A DNA stretch of 52,005 nucleotides from the NCBI GenBank assembly GCA_029265085.1, contig JAJUJY010000011.1, positions 1 through 52,005 on the forward strand. The letters are read 5' to 3'. The notes below the pieces were generated by a model. That model was not told the origin of the DNA. It did no database searches and saw nothing but the letters and a program-made list of their open reading frames with translations. Source of the stretch: Chloroflexota bacterium. GTDB taxonomy: Bacteria > Chloroflexota > Anaerolineae > Anaerolineales > Anaerolineaceae. How positions within the stretch are numbered: the stretch's first letter is position 1; each line of letters starts with the position of its first letter. Positions 16,979-28,404 of the stretch are shown here, piece after piece. The position numbers and the translations under genes were made by a program.

Positions 16979-18118
16979 TTACTTAGTCCGGCGGGATAAA
17001 CCCTGGATAACCAATCCAAGCCCCAGTAAGGTCAAACCAAGATTGACAAACAGATTCTGAATTCCCTGGAAAGGATTGGCAAAATCAGCACCGGTAACCG
17101 GGATCAGGACAGTGCTGGGACCACCTGAAGGCGGTTGCAAGGTGGGCGGCGGAGTCTGCGGATCCGGATCTCCCTGGCTGGGTGGCGTGCTTTGCGTGGG
17201 TTGGCCGGTAGGCTGTTCCGTTGGTTGTTCGGTTGGTTGTTCAGTCGCCGGGTCGGTAGGCTGCGGTGTCGCGGACTGGGTAGGTTCAGCGGTTGGCTGA
17301 GTTGGTACAATCGTTTCTGTTTCAGTCGGAACCGGGGTTACCGTCTCGGTCGGTACAATTGGCTGCGTTGGTGCTTCGGTCGGTTCCTCAGTAGGAACCT
17401 GGGTTGGCTCCGTCGGAACGATGGTTTCGGTTTCGGTCGGAGTTTGGGTTACAGTTTCAGTCGGAACCGGAGTCTGACTGGGTTCTTCAGTCGGTTCTTC
17501 CGTTGGAGGCTCGGTCACGACCGGAGTTTCCGTTTTGGTTGGGTCCTGAGTCGGCTCCTCGGTTGGGGTCTCCGTCACAACCGGGGTTACAGTGGTGGTT
17601 GGCGTTTCAGTGGGAGTAACCTCTTGGGTAGGAGTAGTAGTTGGCACAACACAAGCACTTACTGAGCATGTGTCACTCCACAGGTCCGGAGTTTGCCCAG
17701 GAGTACCCGGGTGACCGGGGCGTTGGATCGCGCGGAACTTGTATTCACCGGCTACGCCGTTCGGATTAAAGGACAGGGTAGTGCAAGTACCAGAGGCCAG
17801 CGCCGAAATTGTGCCGCCGCCAACCACAACCCCATCTTTCGGATTACCGGATTCAATCCAATACACTTCATAGGAAGTGCTTCCCAGCATATTGCCCCCG
17901 CCGACATTACAAACTTCGGCTTGAATCACCTGGCAGCCGCCCGTGCAAGAACCTTTAAAGCTTAATGAGCTTTTATCCCAATCGGCACCTTTGGCCGCCA
18001 CTGGCGTTACAATCAAATTGAGGATTAATCCAGCCAACAGAAATACCACACCGGCCGTATAGAACAGATTGGCCAATTTCTTTGTTGGGGCTTTGGAGAA
18101 GACAGCTTTTGCGTTCAT
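16979..18118 (-). CDS. PT-rich surface protein with IPVTG C-terminal motif (paralogue 1)
   Basis: 379 aa from ATG 18118 (GGAGG 5 nt upstream). Residues ~1-45 hold a long signal segment (LFYTAGVVFLLAGLILNLIV, then VAAKGA). A small Cys-containing globular domain follows (about 45-155; CQVIQAEVCNVGGGN, LWSDTCSVSACVV). Then ~165 residues of Thr/Pro/Glu repeats form a stalk (TPTEEPTQ-type units). The C-terminus is VLIPVTGADF, a spacer, a hydrophobic helix (NLGLTLLGLGLVIQGL) and SRRTK. This has the layout of a sortase signal, with IPVTG in place of LPXTG. The domain is paralogous to that of 18578-19726. The gene is preceded by two tandem structured RNA elements. Confidence 0.85.
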   Translation of the reverse strand: MNAKAVFSKAPTKKLANLFYTAGVVFLLAGLILNLIVTPVAAKGADWDKSSLSFKGSCTGGCQVIQAEVCNVGGGNMLGSTSYEVYWIESGNPKDGVVVGGGTISALASGTCTTLSFNPNGVAGEYKFRAIQRPGHPGTPGQTPDLWSDTCSVSACVVPTTTPTQEVTPTETPTTTVTPVVTETPTEEPTQDPTKTETPVVTEPPTEEPTEEPSQTPVPTETVTQTPTETETIVPTEPTQVPTEEPTEAPTQPIVPTETVTPVPTETETIVPTQPTAEPTQSATPQPTDPATEQPTEQPTEQPTGQPTQSTPPSQGDPDPQTPPPTLQPPSGGPSTVLIPVTGADFANPFQGIQNLFVNLGLTLLGLGLVIQGLSRRTK

Positions 18119-18158: not shown

Positions 18159-18205
18159 GGCCTTTGTATTAATTACAAAGGCCAACCGAAAATTTACGGT
18201 TGGCC
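18159..18205 (-). terminator. Terminator-like hairpin after RNA element A, with an alternative hairpin
   Basis: On the minus strand GGCCAACCG/CGGTTGGCC (18197-18205 with 18180-18188) forms a 9-bp stem followed by TTTGTAATT. Its 3' GGCC can instead open a second hairpin, GGCC-TTTGT/ACAAAGGCC (18175-18183 with 18159-18167). The two stems share bases and exclude each other. The T-tract is weak. Confidence 0.5.
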
Positions 18206-18285
18206 GGTTTCGCTACTGGCTCCCCACACACCCCTCCCAAATATCTGGGAAAGCGACCAGGTCAGGTGAGTGGATCAATGCCGCC
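18202..18285 (-). ncRNA. Structured leader RNA, copy A (riboswitch-like, class unknown)
   Basis: Minus-strand core running from GGCGGC (18285-18280) to GGCC (18205-18202). It shares with copies B and C the blocks GGCGGC, TTGATCC, GGTCGCTTT and GGAGCCAGTAGCGAAACCGG, 18-20 nt at most each. Between them a variable helix (CACTCACC with GGTGTGTG, one mismatch) and an inner hairpin (CCCA/TGGG) pair differently in each copy. AGCGAAACC can pair with GGTCGCT across the variable helix, giving a pseudoknot. It lies 84 nt before the surface-protein start codon. Confidence 0.7.
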
Positions 18286-18307
18286 GAGACAATATTGGGT
18301 TGTTAAT

Positions 18308-18331
18308 TAAAAAAGCCGGCCCACCGGCCGG
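18308..18331 (-). terminator. Intrinsic terminator directly after RNA element B
   Basis: On the minus strand CCGGCC, loop GGTG, GGCCGG, then CTTTTTTAATT. The 5' arm begins inside the conserved AAACC-GGCC end of element B, so forming the terminator would disturb the element. Confidence 0.8.
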
Positions 18332-18411
18332 TTTCGCTACTGGCTCCTCGTATCCTCTTTCAGGAACTCCTGAAAAAGCGACCACATTTAAAGATACGGA
18401 TCATCGCCGCC
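18326..18411 (-). ncRNA. Structured leader RNA, copy B (riboswitch-like, class unknown)
   Basis: Minus-strand core from GGCGGC (18411-18406) to GGCC (18329-18326). The variable helix is CGTATC/GATACG (6 bp, perfect) and the inner hairpin TTCAGGA/TCCTGAA (7 bp), both different in sequence from copies A and C but paired at the same positions, which is covariation. The invariant blocks TTGATCC-like (here ATGATCC), GGTCGCTTT and GGAGCCAGTAGCGAAACC are present. It lies upstream of and in tandem with copy A in the same leader. Confidence 0.75.
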
Positions 18412-18451
18412 AAAAAAACAATGGATTGACTTTTTAAAGTTAGTTATTAGT

Positions 18452-18479
18452 ATTTTACACTTAAATGGTAATTTGTCAA
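18452..18479 (-). promoter_or_regulatory. Promoter of the tandem-element leader
   Basis: On the minus strand TTGACA (18479-18474), a 16-bp spacer and TAAAAT (18457-18452). The inferred start near 18445 gives a leader of about 330 nt before the ATG at 18118 that contains elements B and A. Confidence 0.7.
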
Positions 18480-18515
18480 TATGTTAATTGTATTATTTTG
18501 GTATTATTTCTACGC

Positions 18516-18552
18516 AAAATAAAACACCCCCGCAATTGCTTACGGGGGTGTT
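18516..18552 (-). terminator. Intrinsic terminator
   Basis: AACACCCCCG (18523-18532) and CGGGGGTGTT (18543-18552) form a 10-bp stem with a 10-nt loop; on the minus strand it is followed by TTATTTTG. It ends the second PT-rich surface gene. Confidence 0.85.
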
Positions 18553-18577
18553 AATCAATTTACAGGTACTTTATTTC

Positions 18578-19726
18578 TTACTTGTCCGCTTTTTGCGTCA
18601 GACGCTTGGACATACCCTGGCTGATCAGGCCTAAACCAAGTAACGCTAAACCAATATTGATCAAGCCACCCTGTACTGCACCTGCAGGACCCTTTGGACC
18701 GTAGTCCGCACCAGTTACGGGGATCAACACATTCGGGACATCCGTTGGAGGCCGCAAAGTTGGCGGAGGAGTTTGTGTTTCGCCCGGATCGGTTGGTGTA
18801 GTTGTCTCCGTTGGCGGCTCAGTCGGGGTCACCGTCTCAGTTGGAGGCTGCGTTGGAGTAACGGTCTCGGTCGGTGGTTCAGTCGGAGTGACTGTTTCCG
18901 TTGGAGTAACCGTCTCAGTCGGAGTCTCAGTTGGGGTTACAGTTTCCGTAGGAGTTTCAGTTGGGGTAACCGTCTCAGTTGGGGTTTCGGTCGGAGTGAC
19001 CGTCTCGGTCGGAGTTACGGTTTCCGTTGGAGTCTCGGTTGGAGTAACTGTCTCGGTCGGAGTTTTCGTCTTGGTCGGTGTCTCGGTCGGAGTTACGGTT
19101 TCCGTTGGAGTTTCGGTTGGGGTAACCGTCTCGGTCGGGGTTTCGGTTGGAGTCACGGTTTCAGTCGGTGTCTCAGTTGGAGTGACCGTTTCCGTTGGTG
19201 TCTCTGTCGGGGTCACAGTTTCCGTTGGAGTTTCGGTAGGAGTAACTGTCTCGGTTGGGGTTTTGGTCACAACACAAGAACTGACGGTGCAGGCATCACT
19301 CCAGGCATAACCAATTCCAGGGTGTCCAGCGGGTTGGTACACTTTGAAAATATATGTACCGGCCTGCTGGGGATCGAAGGTGATGATCTTGCACTGCTGC
19401 CCAGCTAACGGAGCCTGAAGGAAGCCGCTTCCCACCTTTGAGCCGCTTTTCGGATCACCGGAAACAGAGTAATACACATCAAAAGGAAGGTCCTCGGTTA
19501 TAGAAACATCCTCTGATCCTGTATTACAAACCTGTGCCCAGATCTGATCACAATCCCCATGGCAGCCGTCATAAACCACAATCGAATTTCCCGATGGGTT
19601 ACCAGCAGCCGCGGCTGGTTTAACAACCAGGCCAAGGATCATTCCAGCCAGCAAAGTGATTACCCCCAGGGTATAAAATGTGTTGGCTGCATTTCTAAGA
19701 ACTTTTGTGATGAATGTTGTTTTCAT
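18578..19726 (-). CDS. PT-rich surface protein with IPVTG C-terminal motif (paralogue 2)
   Basis: 382 aa, ATG 19726 with GGGAGGG 6 nt upstream. Layout as in paralogue 1: N-terminal hydrophobic signal (TFYTLGVITLLAGMILGLVV, then AAAAG), a globular domain of ~110 residues with conserved Cys (CHGDCDQIWAQVCNTG, YAWSDACTVSSCVV), and a ~160-residue stalk built from near-perfect TPTETPTETV units. The C-terminus is VLIPVTGADY, a hydrophobic helix (GGLINIGLALLGLGLIS) and a basic tail (KRLTQKADK). Probably exported and anchored with the domain displayed away from the cell. Its own leader holds RNA element C. Repeat copy number may vary between strains. Confidence 0.85.
   Translation of the reverse strand: MKTTFITKVLRNAANTFYTLGVITLLAGMILGLVVKPAAAAGNPSGNSIVVYDGCHGDCDQIWAQVCNTGSEDVSITEDLPFDVYYSVSGDPKSGSKVGSGFLQAPLAGQQCKIITFDPQQAGTYIFKVYQPAGHPGIGYAWSDACTVSSCVVTKTPTETVTPTETPTETVTPTETPTETVTPTETPTETVTPTETPTETVTPTETPTETVTPTETPTKTKTPTETVTPTETPTETVTPTETVTPTETPTETVTPTETPTETVTPTETPTETVTPTETVTPTEPPTETVTPTQPPTETVTPTEPPTETTTPTDPGETQTPPPTLRPPTDVPNVLIPVTGADYGPKGPAGAVQGGLINIGLALLGLGLISQGMSKRLTQKADK
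18825..19265. repeat. Tandem repeat encoding the Thr/Pro/Glu stalk
   Basis: Short units coding for ETVTPTETPT recur through the middle of paralogue 2 with synonymous drift, mainly 30-bp periods with some 18-bp partial units. The same array leaves long, spurious open frames on the opposite strand. Confidence 0.85.
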
Positions 19727-19815
19727 CTTTACCCTCCCATTGAATTCAGGGAAACAAAACGAATAACGGCGGATGACGAACAGGTCGGAGCTTTCGCTCT
19801 ACCAGATACAAATCC

Positions 19816-19860
19816 CGATTAAAAACAAACGAAACCGGGCAATTGGCTTGGCCGGTTTCG
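19816..19860 (-). terminator. Terminator that competes with RNA element C
   Basis: On the minus strand CGAAACCGG (19860-19852) pairs with CCGGTTTCG (19838-19830), 9 bp with a 13-nt loop, followed by TTTGTTTTTAATC. The 5' arm is the conserved CGAAACC of element C itself, so the terminator and the pseudoknot helix cannot form together. Confidence 0.75.
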
Positions 19861-19937
19861 CTACTGGCTCCCCGATACCTCTCTCAACTTTTCGTTTGAG
19901 AAAGCGACCAATTTAAAGGTATCGGATCAACGCCGCC
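19850..19937 (-). ncRNA. Structured leader RNA, copy C (riboswitch-like, class unknown)
   Basis: Minus-strand core from GGCGGC (19937-19932) to GGCC (19853-19850). The variable helix CCGATACC/GGTATCGG is a perfect 8 bp, and the inner hairpin is CTCAA/TTGAG. GGTCGCTTT and GGAGCCAGTAGCGAAACC are identical to copies A and B. It lies 124 nt before the start of paralogue 2. The remaining leader (19727-19815) holds a small GAGC-GAAA-GCTC tetraloop hairpin (about 19788-19799). Confidence 0.75.
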
Positions 19938-19995
19938 AATCATTTTGTTGTTTTATCAAGGTACAACCAAATCAATTACCACCTAATTTATCCTA

Positions 19996-20023
19996 ATTCT
20001 ACGGCGGAAAATATGTTTGTCAA
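19996..20023 (-). promoter_or_regulatory. Promoter of the element C leader
   Basis: On the minus strand TTGACA (20023-20018), a 16-bp spacer and TAGAAT (20001-19996). Same spacing as the promoter at 18452-18479. The leader to ATG 19726 is about 260 nt. Confidence 0.65.
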
Positions 20024-23884: not shown

Positions 23885-24550
23885 TTACCGCCCCTGGCGC
23901 CATTGGATATATTGATCGGCTTCCTCCCGGCTCATCTTGACGGTCACGCGGTCCTTCGGCTGCGGTCTGCCGCGATTTGGGACCGGCTGCACCACATTCC
24001 GCGGTTTTTCAGGTCTGCGTCCTGCCAGGTAACCACCGCTCGTTCCCACCAGGCCAACCAGCAGCGCCAGGCTTACCGTCACGTCCATTGGCCAGGCTGC
24101 ATGGGTCTGGTCCTCCCCTGTTACCGGGATAATCACTTTGGAAGATTCAGGTTCAGTCGTTTCCTGTGCCGTCAAATTCGCCTGAGTTTCCGCCAGCTTC
24201 TTTTCCAGATCCACACGAGTTTGGTCCAGCTCAGTGATTTTTTGCTCGTACTGCGCGATCTGCGCTTGAAGCTGTTGGATGGTAGCTTGATTGCTGCTTT
24301 GTGCAGCCAGTGCTTCCGTCAGTTTAGTTTCCGTTTCAGCCAGCCGGGTTTTATATTCTTCCACCTGCTGCCCGGCTCGATCCAGGTCATTTTTCAGCTG
24401 CTCAATTTGTCGTGAGAGTTCCTCATTTTGAGCTGCGAGTTGGCTGTATTGCTCTTTGAGGTCAACATATTTTTCCACCAGTACCCCACCGCCGCCAAGG
24501 ATTGCGGCAAGTAGAGCGAAGATCAAGAAGAAACCTATCCCGTTATTCAT
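23885..24550 (-). CDS. Membrane-anchored coiled-coil protein with internal IPVTG motif
   Basis: 221 aa from ATG 24550, preceded by GGGAGGGCTAAAG, nearly the same leader as paralogue 2 (GGGAGGGTAAAG). An N-terminal hydrophobic helix (FFLIFALLAAILGGGGVLV) is followed by a long heptad coiled coil (about 28-125; EQYSQLAAQNEELSRQIEQL). Then come VIIPVTGEDQ (about 137-146), a second hydrophobic helix (VTVSLALLVGLVGTSGGYLA) and a basic tail of ~45 residues. The motif is the same as at the C-termini of the two PT-rich proteins, but here it is internal, with a longer cytoplasmic tail. Function unknown; a cell-surface scaffold is likely. Confidence 0.8.
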   Translation of the reverse strand: MNNGIGFFLIFALLAAILGGGGVLVEKYVDLKEQYSQLAAQNEELSRQIEQLKNDLDRAGQQVEEYKTRLAETETKLTEALAAQSSNQATIQQLQAQIAQYEQKITELDQTRVDLEKKLAETQANLTAQETTEPESSKVIIPVTGEDQTHAAWPMDVTVSLALLVGLVGTSGGYLAGRRPEKPRNVVQPVPNRGRPQPKDRVTVKMSREEADQYIQWRQGR

Positions 24551-24808
24551 CTTTAGCCCTCCCGTTTGAACGTGCAAATGATCGGTCAAGATGACTGGGC
24601 GTATTTCTGGGTGAGGACAGATCCTCAGTTACTATATTTGCTCCCCCCAGAGCGCCAAAACTTTTTGGAGCATCATTTCCATCACCCTCCTCGAGAGCAA
24701 TTATTGAAAATTTCTATTTTTGTGATTGATTGCTCTCAATTACTTGAATGATTATATCAATACTATACACGATATATATCATATTTTCAAGAGGTTTTTG
24801 AAATTTGA

Positions 24809-24837
24809 TTGACAGAAAATCTTAATAAATGTATGAT
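24809..24837 (+). promoter_or_regulatory. Consensus promoter of the RSH-ATPase gene
   Basis: TTGACA (24809-24814), a 17-bp spacer and TATGAT (24832-24837). The inferred start near 24844 makes the upstream ATG at 24829 untranslatable (it lies in the -10) and sets the coding start at ATG 24862. The rest of the 24551-24808 spacer is AT-rich with nothing recognisable. Confidence 0.75.
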
Positions 24838-24861
24838 AATTCTCAAGGGGAAACGATTCTT

Positions 24862-27800
24862 ATGAACATATCTTCCACACAAACGCAAAGCAGTGCATCT
24901 ATCCTGGCATGGTTAGCCAGCCGCCCGGAACTTGCGGATCAATTACCGCCGCTTGCACTGGATGTCATTCAAAAAACAGTTCAAAAAGCAATCGAGTGGA
25001 AACTACCAGAATCGGCGCTGGTGGCAATTCAAATCACGCCCCTGCTTCACAACAACCTGATCACGCCAGCAGCGTTGGCCAACCTGGTTACCCCGGAAGC
25101 ACTGGACATGGCCTTGCAGGTCTTAAAATGGCGGCCGGAGAACATGCAGCCTTCGCGACCAGAGCGCCCACCGCGCAGCCCGGAATATTATTCACAGCGC
25201 TTACGCCAGCTGGTGCGCATGATTTACACCGATCAAACCAATGCACAGCTCCCCTTGATCATTATGGCCCAGCACAATGCCCACCTGGAGATCATGAAAA
25301 ACCCTAATGTGATCCAGGAGACGGAACAAATTTTTATTCTCCTGGCAGAAATATTGGGCCTGTGGCGGCTGAGACGCAATTGGGTAGAGACTGTCAGCCT
25401 GTATAATTATCAAAGCAGCCCCAAAAGTATGCTGGAATATCAAAAAGTGATCCAGCTAATTGGCAGTGAACAATGGTATTCATTAGATGGGATCCGCAGT
25501 AAGCTGCGCAAGGCTTATCAATACCGTCGTGAAACACCTGCCGCCAGCTCGGAGCACCAACACTGGCTTGATACCAACAAGACACACCTGAAACGCACTG
25601 AAGCGTTCATCCGTTTGCGGCAGAAGATTTGGGCTGCCTGCAAAAACACAGGTATGCAGCACCGGCCGCTGGTGACCATCCGCCAGGCACCTCCGGGGGG
25701 AATTATCAAACGCGCCAGGCAAGGCGAAAACATCGAAGACCAGATCTACCGCCTGCGCATCCGTATTTTTTGCCAGACAGAGAATGAATGCTACCAGATT
25801 TTAGGCATCATTCACCAATTAGGAAAACCGGTTGCTCCGCGGTATTCCGAGCGATTTGAAGATTTTATCGCTGCACCGCAATCCAACGGCTACCGCTCGA
25901 TCCACACCGCGATGAGTTTTAAATGGGTAGATCGCGACCATAAAACCAATGAAATTTTGGTGGACTGCCGGATCGTAACCAAAGCCATGCACGCCATTAA
26001 TGAAAACGGAATTCAGGCCGCAAAATTTGGATTTCCAGGCGCAGATAAAGGCATCAACACCTGGTGGAACCGGCTCCCCGAACTCTCTGAGCGATTAAAC
26101 ACCTTACGAAAAGCGAAAGAACACACCACCATCCAGGATTACATTGCAAAGCATGAATTAAATACCCAATCGGACCCTTTGTATGTCATCACCCCCAAAG
26201 GCGATATTATCCTTATGGAAAAGGGTTCGACCCCGCTTGATTTTGCCTACATGATCCACACCGAAATCGGGCACCATGCCCTCAAAGCCGAAGTAAACAG
26301 CCGGACTGTGCCGTTTAACTACCCGCTCCGCAACGGCGATATGGTCAAAATCACCTTTAGCCTGAACAATTCCGGATTGGATTTTTCCTGGCTAAACAGC
26401 GTGCAATCCGGGCGGGCACGGGCAAAAATTCGCCGCCAACTGAGCAGCCGCGCCGAGGCAATTCACCCCGGACGGCAATTGATCGAAGAAGCTGTATCCA
26501 AGCTGGAAAAATATTATCGCGAAAGACGCAAATACACACTCAACATCACCACGTCCCGGCTCGAATCTTTCCTGTACCGTTTCGCCAGTGAAGAGCAAAA
26601 ATGCCCCGTACCCGCCTTATATGAGCAGATCTTTACCGAAAAAGAGACCAATATAAACCAGCCCATCTTAGACCGCCTGATTAATCACCTCGTCTCGGAT
26701 GAATTTACCCCCATTGTCGTGGATATGAATGGAGATCACCTGCCTTACCCGCCCCGGCAGATTTCCATTTGCCCGACCTGCCGGCCAATCCCCGGCGAAC
26801 CAATCCTGGCAGTCATACGGCAGGCCAACCGCCACAAAGAGCAGATCTTGGTCCACAGCCGATTATCAAAGGTTTGCGCGCTAAAAAACACATCCAATAC
26901 GCTGCCAATTCGCTGGGTAGAAGCCAGCACCCCGGCTGTCGAGACAATGGTCTTTGAAATTGACGGAATGGACCGCCCCAGATTGTTATATGATCTACTG
27001 GAATGCATTTATCCATTTCGGGAATGCCAGGTAGTTGCCGTAGAAGCTCAAAAAGCAGTCAGCGGCAATGCGCACGTACAGCTCATCATTTCAACCACCA
27101 ACAAGGATAATTTTTCCAAAATCCATGAGGAACTGGATCAAGTGCGCGGACTGCGCCGTATCCTGACCAAAAATGCGTCCATTGCGCAGATTCTGGCACA
27201 CAGCACACCGAAAAACAACCTCTACGACCCCTTCTGGGAGCAAGAAGTGCGCAACCGGCTGGGATTTTATGACCGGGAAGAATTACTCTCAAAAATTATG
27301 CAATGGCTTAAAGATGTTCAGGGATCTGTTTTACAATCCGAGGAAAGATTTGGCCGGCCGCTCTCAAATTGGGCAATCTTGCACGGCCAACGCCGTGTAG
27401 GGAAATCCTCAGCAGCCCAATTTTTGATCCACGAAGAATTGATCTCCGATCCATCCATTCAGCCCTGTGCGCTCACTATGCAAAGCTTAAGTTACTTTTC
27501 TCCCCAGGCAATTGCCGATCACCTGGGAGCGCAAATTTGCGAGCAGCTTCATATGGATATCCCTGCACAAGAAGTATGGGAACAACCTTTTTCCTGGCTA
27601 AAACGAGTACTCAACAAAATCGTTGAAGAACAGCCCAGCAAATTAATCCTGGTAGTGATCGATGAATTTACCGTCTTGTTGGATCGCCAGAATGCCCAAG
27701 AGATGGACCGCATGGTCCTTTCAAACCTTGCCTGGCTGTTCAAGACCGTCAAACAGGTTGCCTGGCTGGTGATTGTGCATGATTCTGAATACTTAAATCC

Positions 27801-28404
27801 TGCCCGCTGGGGTGCTGCCAGAGCGATCATTGAAAAAGCACCTGACTTTCAAATCCTTCCGTTCGACGAAACCTACACCCGCCGTTTGTTCTGCGAACCG
27901 CTGCAAGCGATGGGGTACGACCTGGAAACCGAAGAAATCAGCAAACAAGTGTACGATCTGACCGGAGGCAATCCCTACCTGATTAAGACACTGGGGCGTG
28001 AAGTGGACGAATTATTAAAACGCCACAACCATATCCGCTTGACCAGCGAAGAACTTCAACACGCCAGCCGGTTGATTTATTCGGATGCCGACCGGTATTT
28101 TGACCATATGCTGGTGCACACCCACGGTTTTAATGGCATCGTCCTTGCCGCTATTGCCCAATGCGCCGGGCAGCGCGAATGGGTGCCCTATCCGGATTTA
28201 CTGGCCTGCCTCTGCGATGAATGTGTCGATCAAGAAGAACTGGTACAAAATGCGCTGGATGCATTAGAAACACAGGGCGTCATTGAACGCCAGTTGGATG
28301 CTGCCAATTCCCAAATTCGCATCCGCGTAGGATTATTCCGGCAGTGGGCCAGCCGGCACCTCAGCCTGACAGACGCCATTGAAAACTGGCAGGCAGGAGA
28401 ATAA
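24862..28404 (+). CDS. RelA/SpoT-like protein with degenerate catalytic domains fused to a P-loop ATPase
   Basis: 1180 aa. N-terminus (about 30-200): helices resembling the Rel hydrolase domain, with LLHNNLITP (61-69) where LLHDxxED is expected, and ETEQIFILLAEILGLWRLRR. Synthetase-like region (about 240-400): DQIYRLRIRIFCQTENECYQ, DFIAAPQSNGYRSIHTAM; the catalytic Asp of the YD-L-x-A-R motif is Arg and the Glu of EIQIRT is Asp (VDCRIVT). TGS domain 437-500; Zn-finger/CC region 635-672 (CPTC, then H665 and C672); ACT domain about 694-768. An ATPase follows: GQRRVGKSS (842-850), LILVVIDEF (928-936), and a C-terminal winged helix. Both alarmone-enzyme sites look inactive, so it may sense (p)ppGpp or stalled ribosomes and signal via the ATPase. 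The start was set by the promoter. Confidence 0.85.
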   Translation: MNISSTQTQSSASILAWLASRPELADQLPPLALDVIQKTVQKAIEWKLPESALVAIQITPLLHNNLITPAALANLVTPEALDMALQVLKWRPENMQPSRPERPPRSPEYYSQRLRQLVRMIYTDQTNAQLPLIIMAQHNAHLEIMKNPNVIQETEQIFILLAEILGLWRLRRNWVETVSLYNYQSSPKSMLEYQKVIQLIGSEQWYSLDGIRSKLRKAYQYRRETPAASSEHQHWLDTNKTHLKRTEAFIRLRQKIWAACKNTGMQHRPLVTIRQAPPGGIIKRARQGENIEDQIYRLRIRIFCQTENECYQILGIIHQLGKPVAPRYSERFEDFIAAPQSNGYRSIHTAMSFKWVDRDHKTNEILVDCRIVTKAMHAINENGIQAAKFGFPGADKGINTWWNRLPELSERLNTLRKAKEHTTIQDYIAKHELNTQSDPLYVITPKGDIILMEKGSTPLDFAYMIHTEIGHHALKAEVNSRTVPFNYPLRNGDMVKITFSLNNSGLDFSWLNSVQSGRARAKIRRQLSSRAEAIHPGRQLIEEAVSKLEKYYRERRKYTLNITTSRLESFLYRFASEEQKCPVPALYEQIFTEKETNINQPILDRLINHLVSDEFTPIVVDMNGDHLPYPPRQISICPTCRPIPGEPILAVIRQANRHKEQILVHSRLSKVCALKNTSNTLPIRWVEASTPAVETMVFEIDGMDRPRLLYDLLECIYPFRECQVVAVEAQKAVSGNAHVQLIISTTNKDNFSKIHEELDQVRGLRRILTKNASIAQILAHSTPKNNLYDPFWEQEVRNRLGFYDREELLSKIMQWLKDVQGSVLQSEERFGRPLSNWAILHGQRRVGKSSAAQFLIHEELISDPSIQPCALTMQSLSYFSPQAIADHLGAQICEQLHMDIPAQEVWEQPFSWLKRVLNKIVEEQPSKLILVVIDEFTVLLDRQNAQEMDRMVLSNLAWLFKTVKQVAWLVIVHDSEYLNPARWGAARAIIEKAPDFQILPFDETYTRRLFCEPLQAMGYDLETEEISKQVYDLTGGNPYLIKTLGREVDELLKRHNHIRLTSEELQHASRLIYSDADRYFDHMLVHTHGFNGIVLAAIAQCAGQREWVPYPDLLACLCDECVDQEELVQNALDALETQGVIERQLDAANSQIRIRVGLFRQWASRHLSLTDAIENWQAGE

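Follow-up and report, generated by a model that had tools for sequence, protein, structure and literature searches.

The locus

The window (the whole stretch of 52,005 nucleotides that was analysed) carries two genes with their leader RNAs on its minus strand, between positions 20023 and 16979. Their order is a promoter, aptamer A, a terminator and gene 1, and then a terminator, a second promoter, aptamer B with its terminator, aptamer C with its terminator, and gene 2 (Table 1). An earlier note, made from the letters of this DNA, had drawn attention to three elements on this strand that share a set of short blocks, and every block that it quoted was found in its place. Its description of them as riboswitch-like leader RNAs with adjoining terminators before surface-protein genes is likewise supported by the analysis reported here.

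Table 1. Features of the minus-strand locus
Feature	Positions	Strand	Evidence
Putative promoter of gene 1, TTGACA-16-TAGAAT	19996..20023	-	11/12 consensus positions; consensus match only
c-di-GMP-II aptamer A (19850-19937 in the earlier note)	19841..19946	-	RF01786 59.2 bits, gathering score 53.5; U37, AAG triad
Terminator of switch A (region)	19817..19862	-	Minimum-energy fold; hairpin search with T tract
Gene 1, 382 aa	18578..19726	-	TIGR04087 46.3 bits, E 3.5e-12, cut-off of 80 not reached
Intrinsic terminator 3' of gene 1	18523..18552	-	13-bp stem, T-rich tail
Putative promoter of gene 2, TTGACA-16-TAAAAT	18452..18479	-	11/12 consensus positions; consensus match only
c-di-GMP-II aptamer B, first of tandem pair	18317..18420	-	RF03169 44.5 bits (gathering score 40), RF01786 48.5 (gathering score 53.5); U37, AAG triad
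Terminator of switch B (overlaps the 3' strand of P1)	18316..18331	-	Terminator scan; longer form including the core in hairpin search
c-di-GMP-II aptamer C, second of tandem pair	18195..18294	-	RF03169 40.4 bits (gathering score 40), RF01786 42.3; U37, AAG triad
Terminator of switch C	18180..18205	-	Terminator scan and hairpin search; begins at G73, includes the P1 3' strand, excludes A69-C72
Gene 2, 379 aa, ATG start after GGAGG	16979..18118	-	TIGR04087 66.3 bits, E 2.7e-18, cut-off of 80 not reached

The promoter scan found 4 candidates against 2.0 in shuffled sequences and the terminator scan 6 against 2.9; as each yields no more than about twice the shuffled number, the argument is carried by the position and overlap of these signals and not by their counts. 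The terminator of switch A is absent from this stricter terminator scan, and was recovered from the fold and the looser hairpin search. Folding energies of leader plus terminator, compared with those of shuffled sequences, gave z = -4.10 for A, -1.62 for B and -2.05 for C.

Two further genes of the window may be recorded here. A sorting signal of the IPVTG type is also carried by a third protein, encoded at 23885-24589 (minus strand), in which a coiled coil is followed by KVIIPVTGEDQ and a hydrophobic segment; the Rfam search of the whole window at the gathering score gave no c-di-GMP-II match near it. On the plus strand, the product of 24829-28404 (1191 aa) has RelA_SpoT and TGS domains and, after them, a stretch resembling ATPase_2 that scores below the cut-off of that model.

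Conservation and covariation of the fold

The exact core pattern of the elements occurs in 77 stretches of a genome collection that, by its own description, covers 84,980 species. An alignment of 70 elements was constructed, to which 64 of the 77 loci contributed 66, the window 3 and locus L140 one. Most of the 13 loci that were dropped look like chance matches in coding DNA, and among the 13 are also a duplicate (L066, of L040), a truncated element (L036) and two near-misses (L024 and L058). Going by record titles, the 66 elements come largely from Anaerolineae, other Chloroflexi, Dactylosporangium and other Actinobacteria; the Dactylosporangium genomes with the same core are those of L013, L014, L016, L019, L028, L032, L033 and L065.

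Given that the core was itself the search key, the structure is tested just by the pairs outside the core and by the one core position that had been left open. Any given one of the nine P2 pairs can be drawn in 59-70 of the 70 elements, with 4-6 pair types at each, which lies above the best of 1000 shuffles; where several 5' motifs were possible the one with the best P2 pairing was chosen, and the shuffles were made without that choice, which favours pairing somewhat. The pseudoknot pair 44-64 is T-A in 43, C-G in 24 and T-G in 3 of the 70 elements, and is thus of the Watson-Crick type in 67, against a mean of 37.4 and a maximum of 49 in the shuffles. At another pseudoknot pair, 40-68, locus L086 has A-U. 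Both P2, in all nine of its pairs, and the pseudoknot, at pair 44-64, have therefore been kept through compensatory changes, in agreement with the covarying stems that had been proposed from the three window copies. The helices drawn in the earlier note pair as described, save that in its third element CACTCACC/GGTGTGTG forms 7 of 8 pairs, the remaining one being a T-T mismatch. The pseudoknot that it had suggested is present in a refined form, in which AGCGA pairs with TCGCT and CC with GG, leaving the intervening AA unpaired.

Overlapping terminators and the predicted switch

The 5' arm of the switch A terminator, AGCGAAACCGG, is made up of the pseudoknot strand together with A69, A70, C71, C72 and G73. 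This overlap is shared by most related elements: a terminator-like hairpin includes the core or the P1 3' strand in 38 of the 43 elements assigned by record title to Anaerolineae or Chloroflexi (the 3 of the window included), and A70-C71-C72-G73 lies inside the hairpin in 37 of those 38, that of aptamer C taking in just G73 and P1. When the downstream 75 bases were shuffled, such a core/P1 terminator appeared on average in 2.5 of the 43, and never in more than 6. Since the 5' arm of the terminator is part of the aptamer's own 3' strand, aptamer and terminator compete, and the expected sign of the switch is ON.

We consider it very probable that the locus holds three c-di-GMP-II riboswitches, each with its own terminator, that act as transcriptional ON switches of TapA-domain surface proteins. 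Under this model, in the ligand-free RNA the pseudoknot and P1 3' strand (GCGAAACCGGCC, or part of it) would pair with sequence further downstream and the terminator would form. With c-di-GMP bound, the aptamer would hold that same strand, the terminator would be blocked and transcription would enter gene 1 or gene 2. High c-di-GMP would in this way lead to matrix or adhesin proteins being placed on the cell surface, and a role in biofilm formation may be envisaged. In C. difficile all four switches of class II are described as ON switches, two of them preceding sortase-dependent surface proteins (PMC6366702). The latter two, Cdi-2-1 and Cdi-2-3, resemble the predicted switches of the window as class II ON switches of surface proteins with a wall-sorting signal (PMC6366702). 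The window differs from them in the TapA-like domain of its proteins, in the two serial switches before gene 2, in the response regulator that lies near the switch in relatives, and in the apparently different phylum.

The output could instead be that of an OFF switch, or of a leader acting on translation and not on termination, and other output modes are indeed probable elsewhere in the family, given that outside the Anaerolineae/Chloroflexi group a core/P1 terminator is present in just 3 of 27 elements, a set that takes in L140, a Dehalococcoidia record and three whose title says no more than 'bacterium'. Inside the group, too, 5 of the 43 are without such a terminator, 1 with a hairpin further downstream and 4 with none. 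However, in the window and in 38 of the 43 the terminator draws its 5' arm from the 3' strand of the aptamer, which implies competition between the two, and we regard such an output as very improbable for the window. In the Dactylosporangium group it may be translational, 24 of the 27 outside elements, a count not split per record, being devoid of a core-overlapping terminator.

The transcriptional ON model makes a further prediction for the tandem pair. Gene 1 would be governed by one switch and gene 2 by two in series, both of which would need ligand, and a steeper response is expected of the latter. A sharper response was shown for a triple tandem of c-di-GMP-I switches in Bacillus (PMC4759541), and by analogy the B-C pair should respond more sharply. 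Tandem c-di-GMP-II elements are recorded in Paraclostridium and its relatives, most of them before a putative surface-anchor gene, and the same source counts 59 doublets and 9 triplets in the class (PMC9481103).

Family assignment and the ligand-binding pocket

In the Rfam search of the whole window, aptamer A was reported under RF01786 (c-di-GMP-II) and aptamers B and C under its sister model of the same clan, RF03169 (c-di-GMP-II-GAG), all above gathering. In a permissive search, RF01786 was the top model for all three, matched over its full length, with E-values of 5.1e-12, 5.5e-9 and 3.2e-7 in a 2.5-kb search, which set the elements far apart from chance; A reaches the gathering score of this model, and B and C fall short of it. 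Judged by these matches, the three elements belong, as new members, to the known c-di-GMP-II riboswitch family. They share with RF01786 the fold, the core, the pocket residues and the terminator-based architecture of a predicted ON switch, and differ from it in pseudoknot pairs 40-68 and 42-66 and in a host that is apparently one of the Anaerolineae. These two pairs are U-A and G-C in the window, as in the RF03169 consensus, and G-C and A-U in the RF01786 consensus. The 3' core reads GCGA-AA-CC-G in the window, versus GUGC-AA-CC-G in RF01786 and GCGA-GA-CC-G in RF03169.

Positions were numbered by aligning the 3' core. The ligand contacts listed for the C. acetobutylicum aptamer (3Q3Z) are A13, A14, U37, G39, U60, A61, C68, A69, A70, C71, C72, G73 and A74 (PMC7288161), of which A13 and A14 lie outside the positions assigned here. 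The window elements keep U37, G39, A61, A69, A70, C71, C72 and G73, and differ at three contacts, namely 60 (C), 68 (A) and 74 (G); the RF01786 consensus itself has c at 60 and g at 74, and position 68 changed together with its partner 40. The unpaired AA within the pseudoknot would be the ligand-contacting A69 and A70. The pocket residues as a whole point to c-di-GMP as the probable ligand in this organism, although the earlier note had held that a ligand could not be deduced.

To place the pocket in context, two sets of loci were compared, in both of which the counts come from related and not independent sequences and are inflated by shared descent. An RF01786 search of 8 genomes gave 37 matches, of which 1 was over the cut-off; 30 were made into loci and 28 parsed (L101 and L104 being excluded). 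All 28 have A-A-G at 69-70-73 and 26 have U37, the two with C37 (L083 and L090) being identical copies. With RF03169, 400 genomes from the phylum to which G001 (Bellilinea, L007) belongs were searched; 100 gave matches, 91 of them over the cut-off, and 30 loci of this search (L108-L137) were used for counting. Their triads are G-A-G in 20, G-C-G in 4, A-A-G in 3, G-C-C in 2 and G-A-C in 1, and it is from positions 69-70-73, we infer, that GAG and GCG take their names. Across both sets positions 37 and 69 go together: U/A in 29, C/A in 2, U/G in 3, C/G in 21, and A or G with G in 3. Two loci (L124 in G314 and L134 in G091) have a GAG-like backbone with U37 and the A-A-G triad, and are possible intermediates between the two pocket types. 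The exact core patterns of the two types occur in 7 and 22 of the 400 genomes with none shared, a result made uninformative by an expected chance overlap of about 0.4.

These pockets bear on whether the tandem elements B and C might be genuine c-di-GMP-II-GAG RNAs with a ligand other than that of aptamer A. The gathering-score call of Rfam places 18317-18420 and 18195-18294 in RF03169, and the window shares with that model the GCGA pseudoknot strand and much of the core. However, RF01786 outscores RF03169 for both (48.5 versus 44.5 and 42.3 versus 40.4 bits), the common GCGA strand could explain the GAG score, and U37 and A69 are found in each element of the window, in contrast to the G69, the presumed mark of the variant, of 27 of the 30 RF03169 loci and the C37 that accompanies it in 21 of those 27. 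The GAG variant is rejected for the window elements on these pocket residues, and is in our view very improbable. Because B and C score higher with RF01786 and all three carry U37 and A69-A70-G73, their GAG label looks like a threshold artefact, the two falling between the models likely on account of pairs 40-68 and 42-66. That the elements form a new riboswitch class, as the earlier note proposed and as the position of two of the three below the RF01786 gathering score might suggest, is rejected with near certainty, since the Rfam search that it had called for returned matches to a known clan above a gathering score for all three, and full-length RF01786 matches with conserved core and pocket.

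In place of a supposed new class, assignment to the c-di-GMP-II family gives a firm prediction of the ligand and a circuit that can be put to the test. More generally, the RF01786 threshold misses a c-di-GMP-II lineage and Rfam labels some of its members GAG, so that such labels should be relied on only after the pocket residues have been inspected. The coupled change from U37/A69 to C37/G69 within one phylum may help in working out which ligand the GAG variant binds; the GAG and GCG variants are reportedly the subject of a 2017 paper by Weinberg and others.

The proteins encoded by gene 1 and gene 2

The two products share one architecture: an N-terminal hydrophobic segment, a TapA-like domain (residues 60-153 in gene 1 and 45-157 in gene 2), a stalk (of TPTET in gene 1, PT-rich in gene 2) and an IPVTG sorting signal. 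At both C-termini IPVTG is followed by hydrophobic residues and then by a basic tail (VLIPVTG...SKRLTQKADK and VLIPVTG...SRRTK), which is the [LI]PxTG arrangement of sortase substrates. With export signals at one end and sortase-type signals at the other, they are predicted to be surface proteins, anchored to the wall by a predicted sortase.

The whole-protein TIGR04087 scores of both stay below the 80 bits set for TapA (Table 1). A protein-database search with residues 36-160 of gene 2 gave 5 relatives, among them a protein named TapA and another named YqxM, and gene 2 is 39% identical to the Bacillaceae protein named TapA over 117 columns; the match of gene 1 to the TapA-named protein is weaker (23% over 135 columns). 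In view of the TIGR04087 matches and the named relative, we take both proteins to have a domain homologous to TapA (YqxM) and do not file them as TapA, from which they are set apart by their equivalog scores, PT-rich stalk and IPVTG signal. Pfam named neither protein, and when the TapA-like domain was run as a single sequence against solved structures, nothing was found up to E 1. In B. subtilis, TapA, a protein of the biofilm matrix, helps TasA filaments to form, and its conservation does not extend even across Bacillus (PMC10151520). Short of a search with the family models of TasA and SipW, neither gene was recognised beside gene 2.

The switch-associated genes of Anaerolineae relatives

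The RNA class is an ordinary one and the mechanism is well supported; the interesting and useful part is the regulon. Taking as the downstream gene the longest ORF starting at most 450 bases 3' of an element, a sorting signal was found in 13 of 36 complete downstream ORFs of at least 200 aa (2 of them from the window) and in 5 of 284 other ORFs of the same loci (Fisher p 3e-10), a background that contains spurious six-frame ORFs, making the true contrast smaller. Twelve of the 13 IPVTG proteins (all except that of L020) were scanned with TIGR04087, which matched 5, namely gene 1, gene 2 and the proteins of L021, L079 and L073, and was not found in the other 7 (L151, two of L006, L005, L011, L051 and L107); the incomplete ORF of L043 gave no match either. 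One of the L006 IPVTG proteins aligns by BLASTP to the gene 2 domain at 34-35%, and the proteins of L079 and L021, which also lie downstream of such elements, share 52-54% identity with gene 2 across 142 columns.

Behind other elements response regulators are encoded; PF00072 and PF00486 were found in the three that were scanned (L006, L150 and L151), and further ones were assigned by similar sequence. All 7 relatives have GGDEF matches (14-24 each) and sortase matches (2-7 each). In 6 of these 7 Anaerolineae genomes (G001, G002 and G004-G007, not G003) a manual comparison of coordinates places a sortase match no more than 4 kb from a riboswitch, for which the chance is roughly a few per cent per genome, given 2-7 sortase matches and 2-9 riboswitches in each. 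In the same six stretches (L147-L152, from G001, G005, G004, G002, G006 and G007, respectively) the riboswitch directly precedes a response-regulator-like gene near the sortase. Within the window, tblastn with one query each (E 0.01) detected neither a sortase nor a response regulator.

On balance we lean towards the view that the A-A-G c-di-GMP-II RNAs of Anaerolineae form one regulon, often tandem, that would switch on a surface-matrix programme of TapA-domain/IPVTG proteins, a response regulator and probably a nearby sortase. Such a regulon would link c-di-GMP, in bacteria related to filamentous Anaerolinea, to surface proteins of the TapA-like and sortase types and, if true, would constitute an RNA-only link from c-di-GMP to a TapA-like matrix, undescribed as far as we found. 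Literature searches for Chloroflexi with c-di-GMP riboswitch, sortase or TapA/TasA, covering titles and the starts of abstracts in the open literature, gave no description of it among the matches listed. Related published observations are an enrichment of riboswitches in Chloroflexota in general (PMC12452182) and filamentous Anaerolinea in anammox granules (PMC11224092).

Behind the Bellilinea c-di-GMP-II element, L007:5439-6098 (plus strand) encodes a 219-aa protein. By eye it resembles TasA/camelysin; it has no Pfam or NCBIfam match, that identity is not claimed, and when the window was searched with it by tblastn at E 1 there was no match. Among the six response-regulator stretches the elements range from single to triple, those of L148, L151 and L152 being tandem or triple, and a tandem or triple element also precedes an IPVTG protein in L157.
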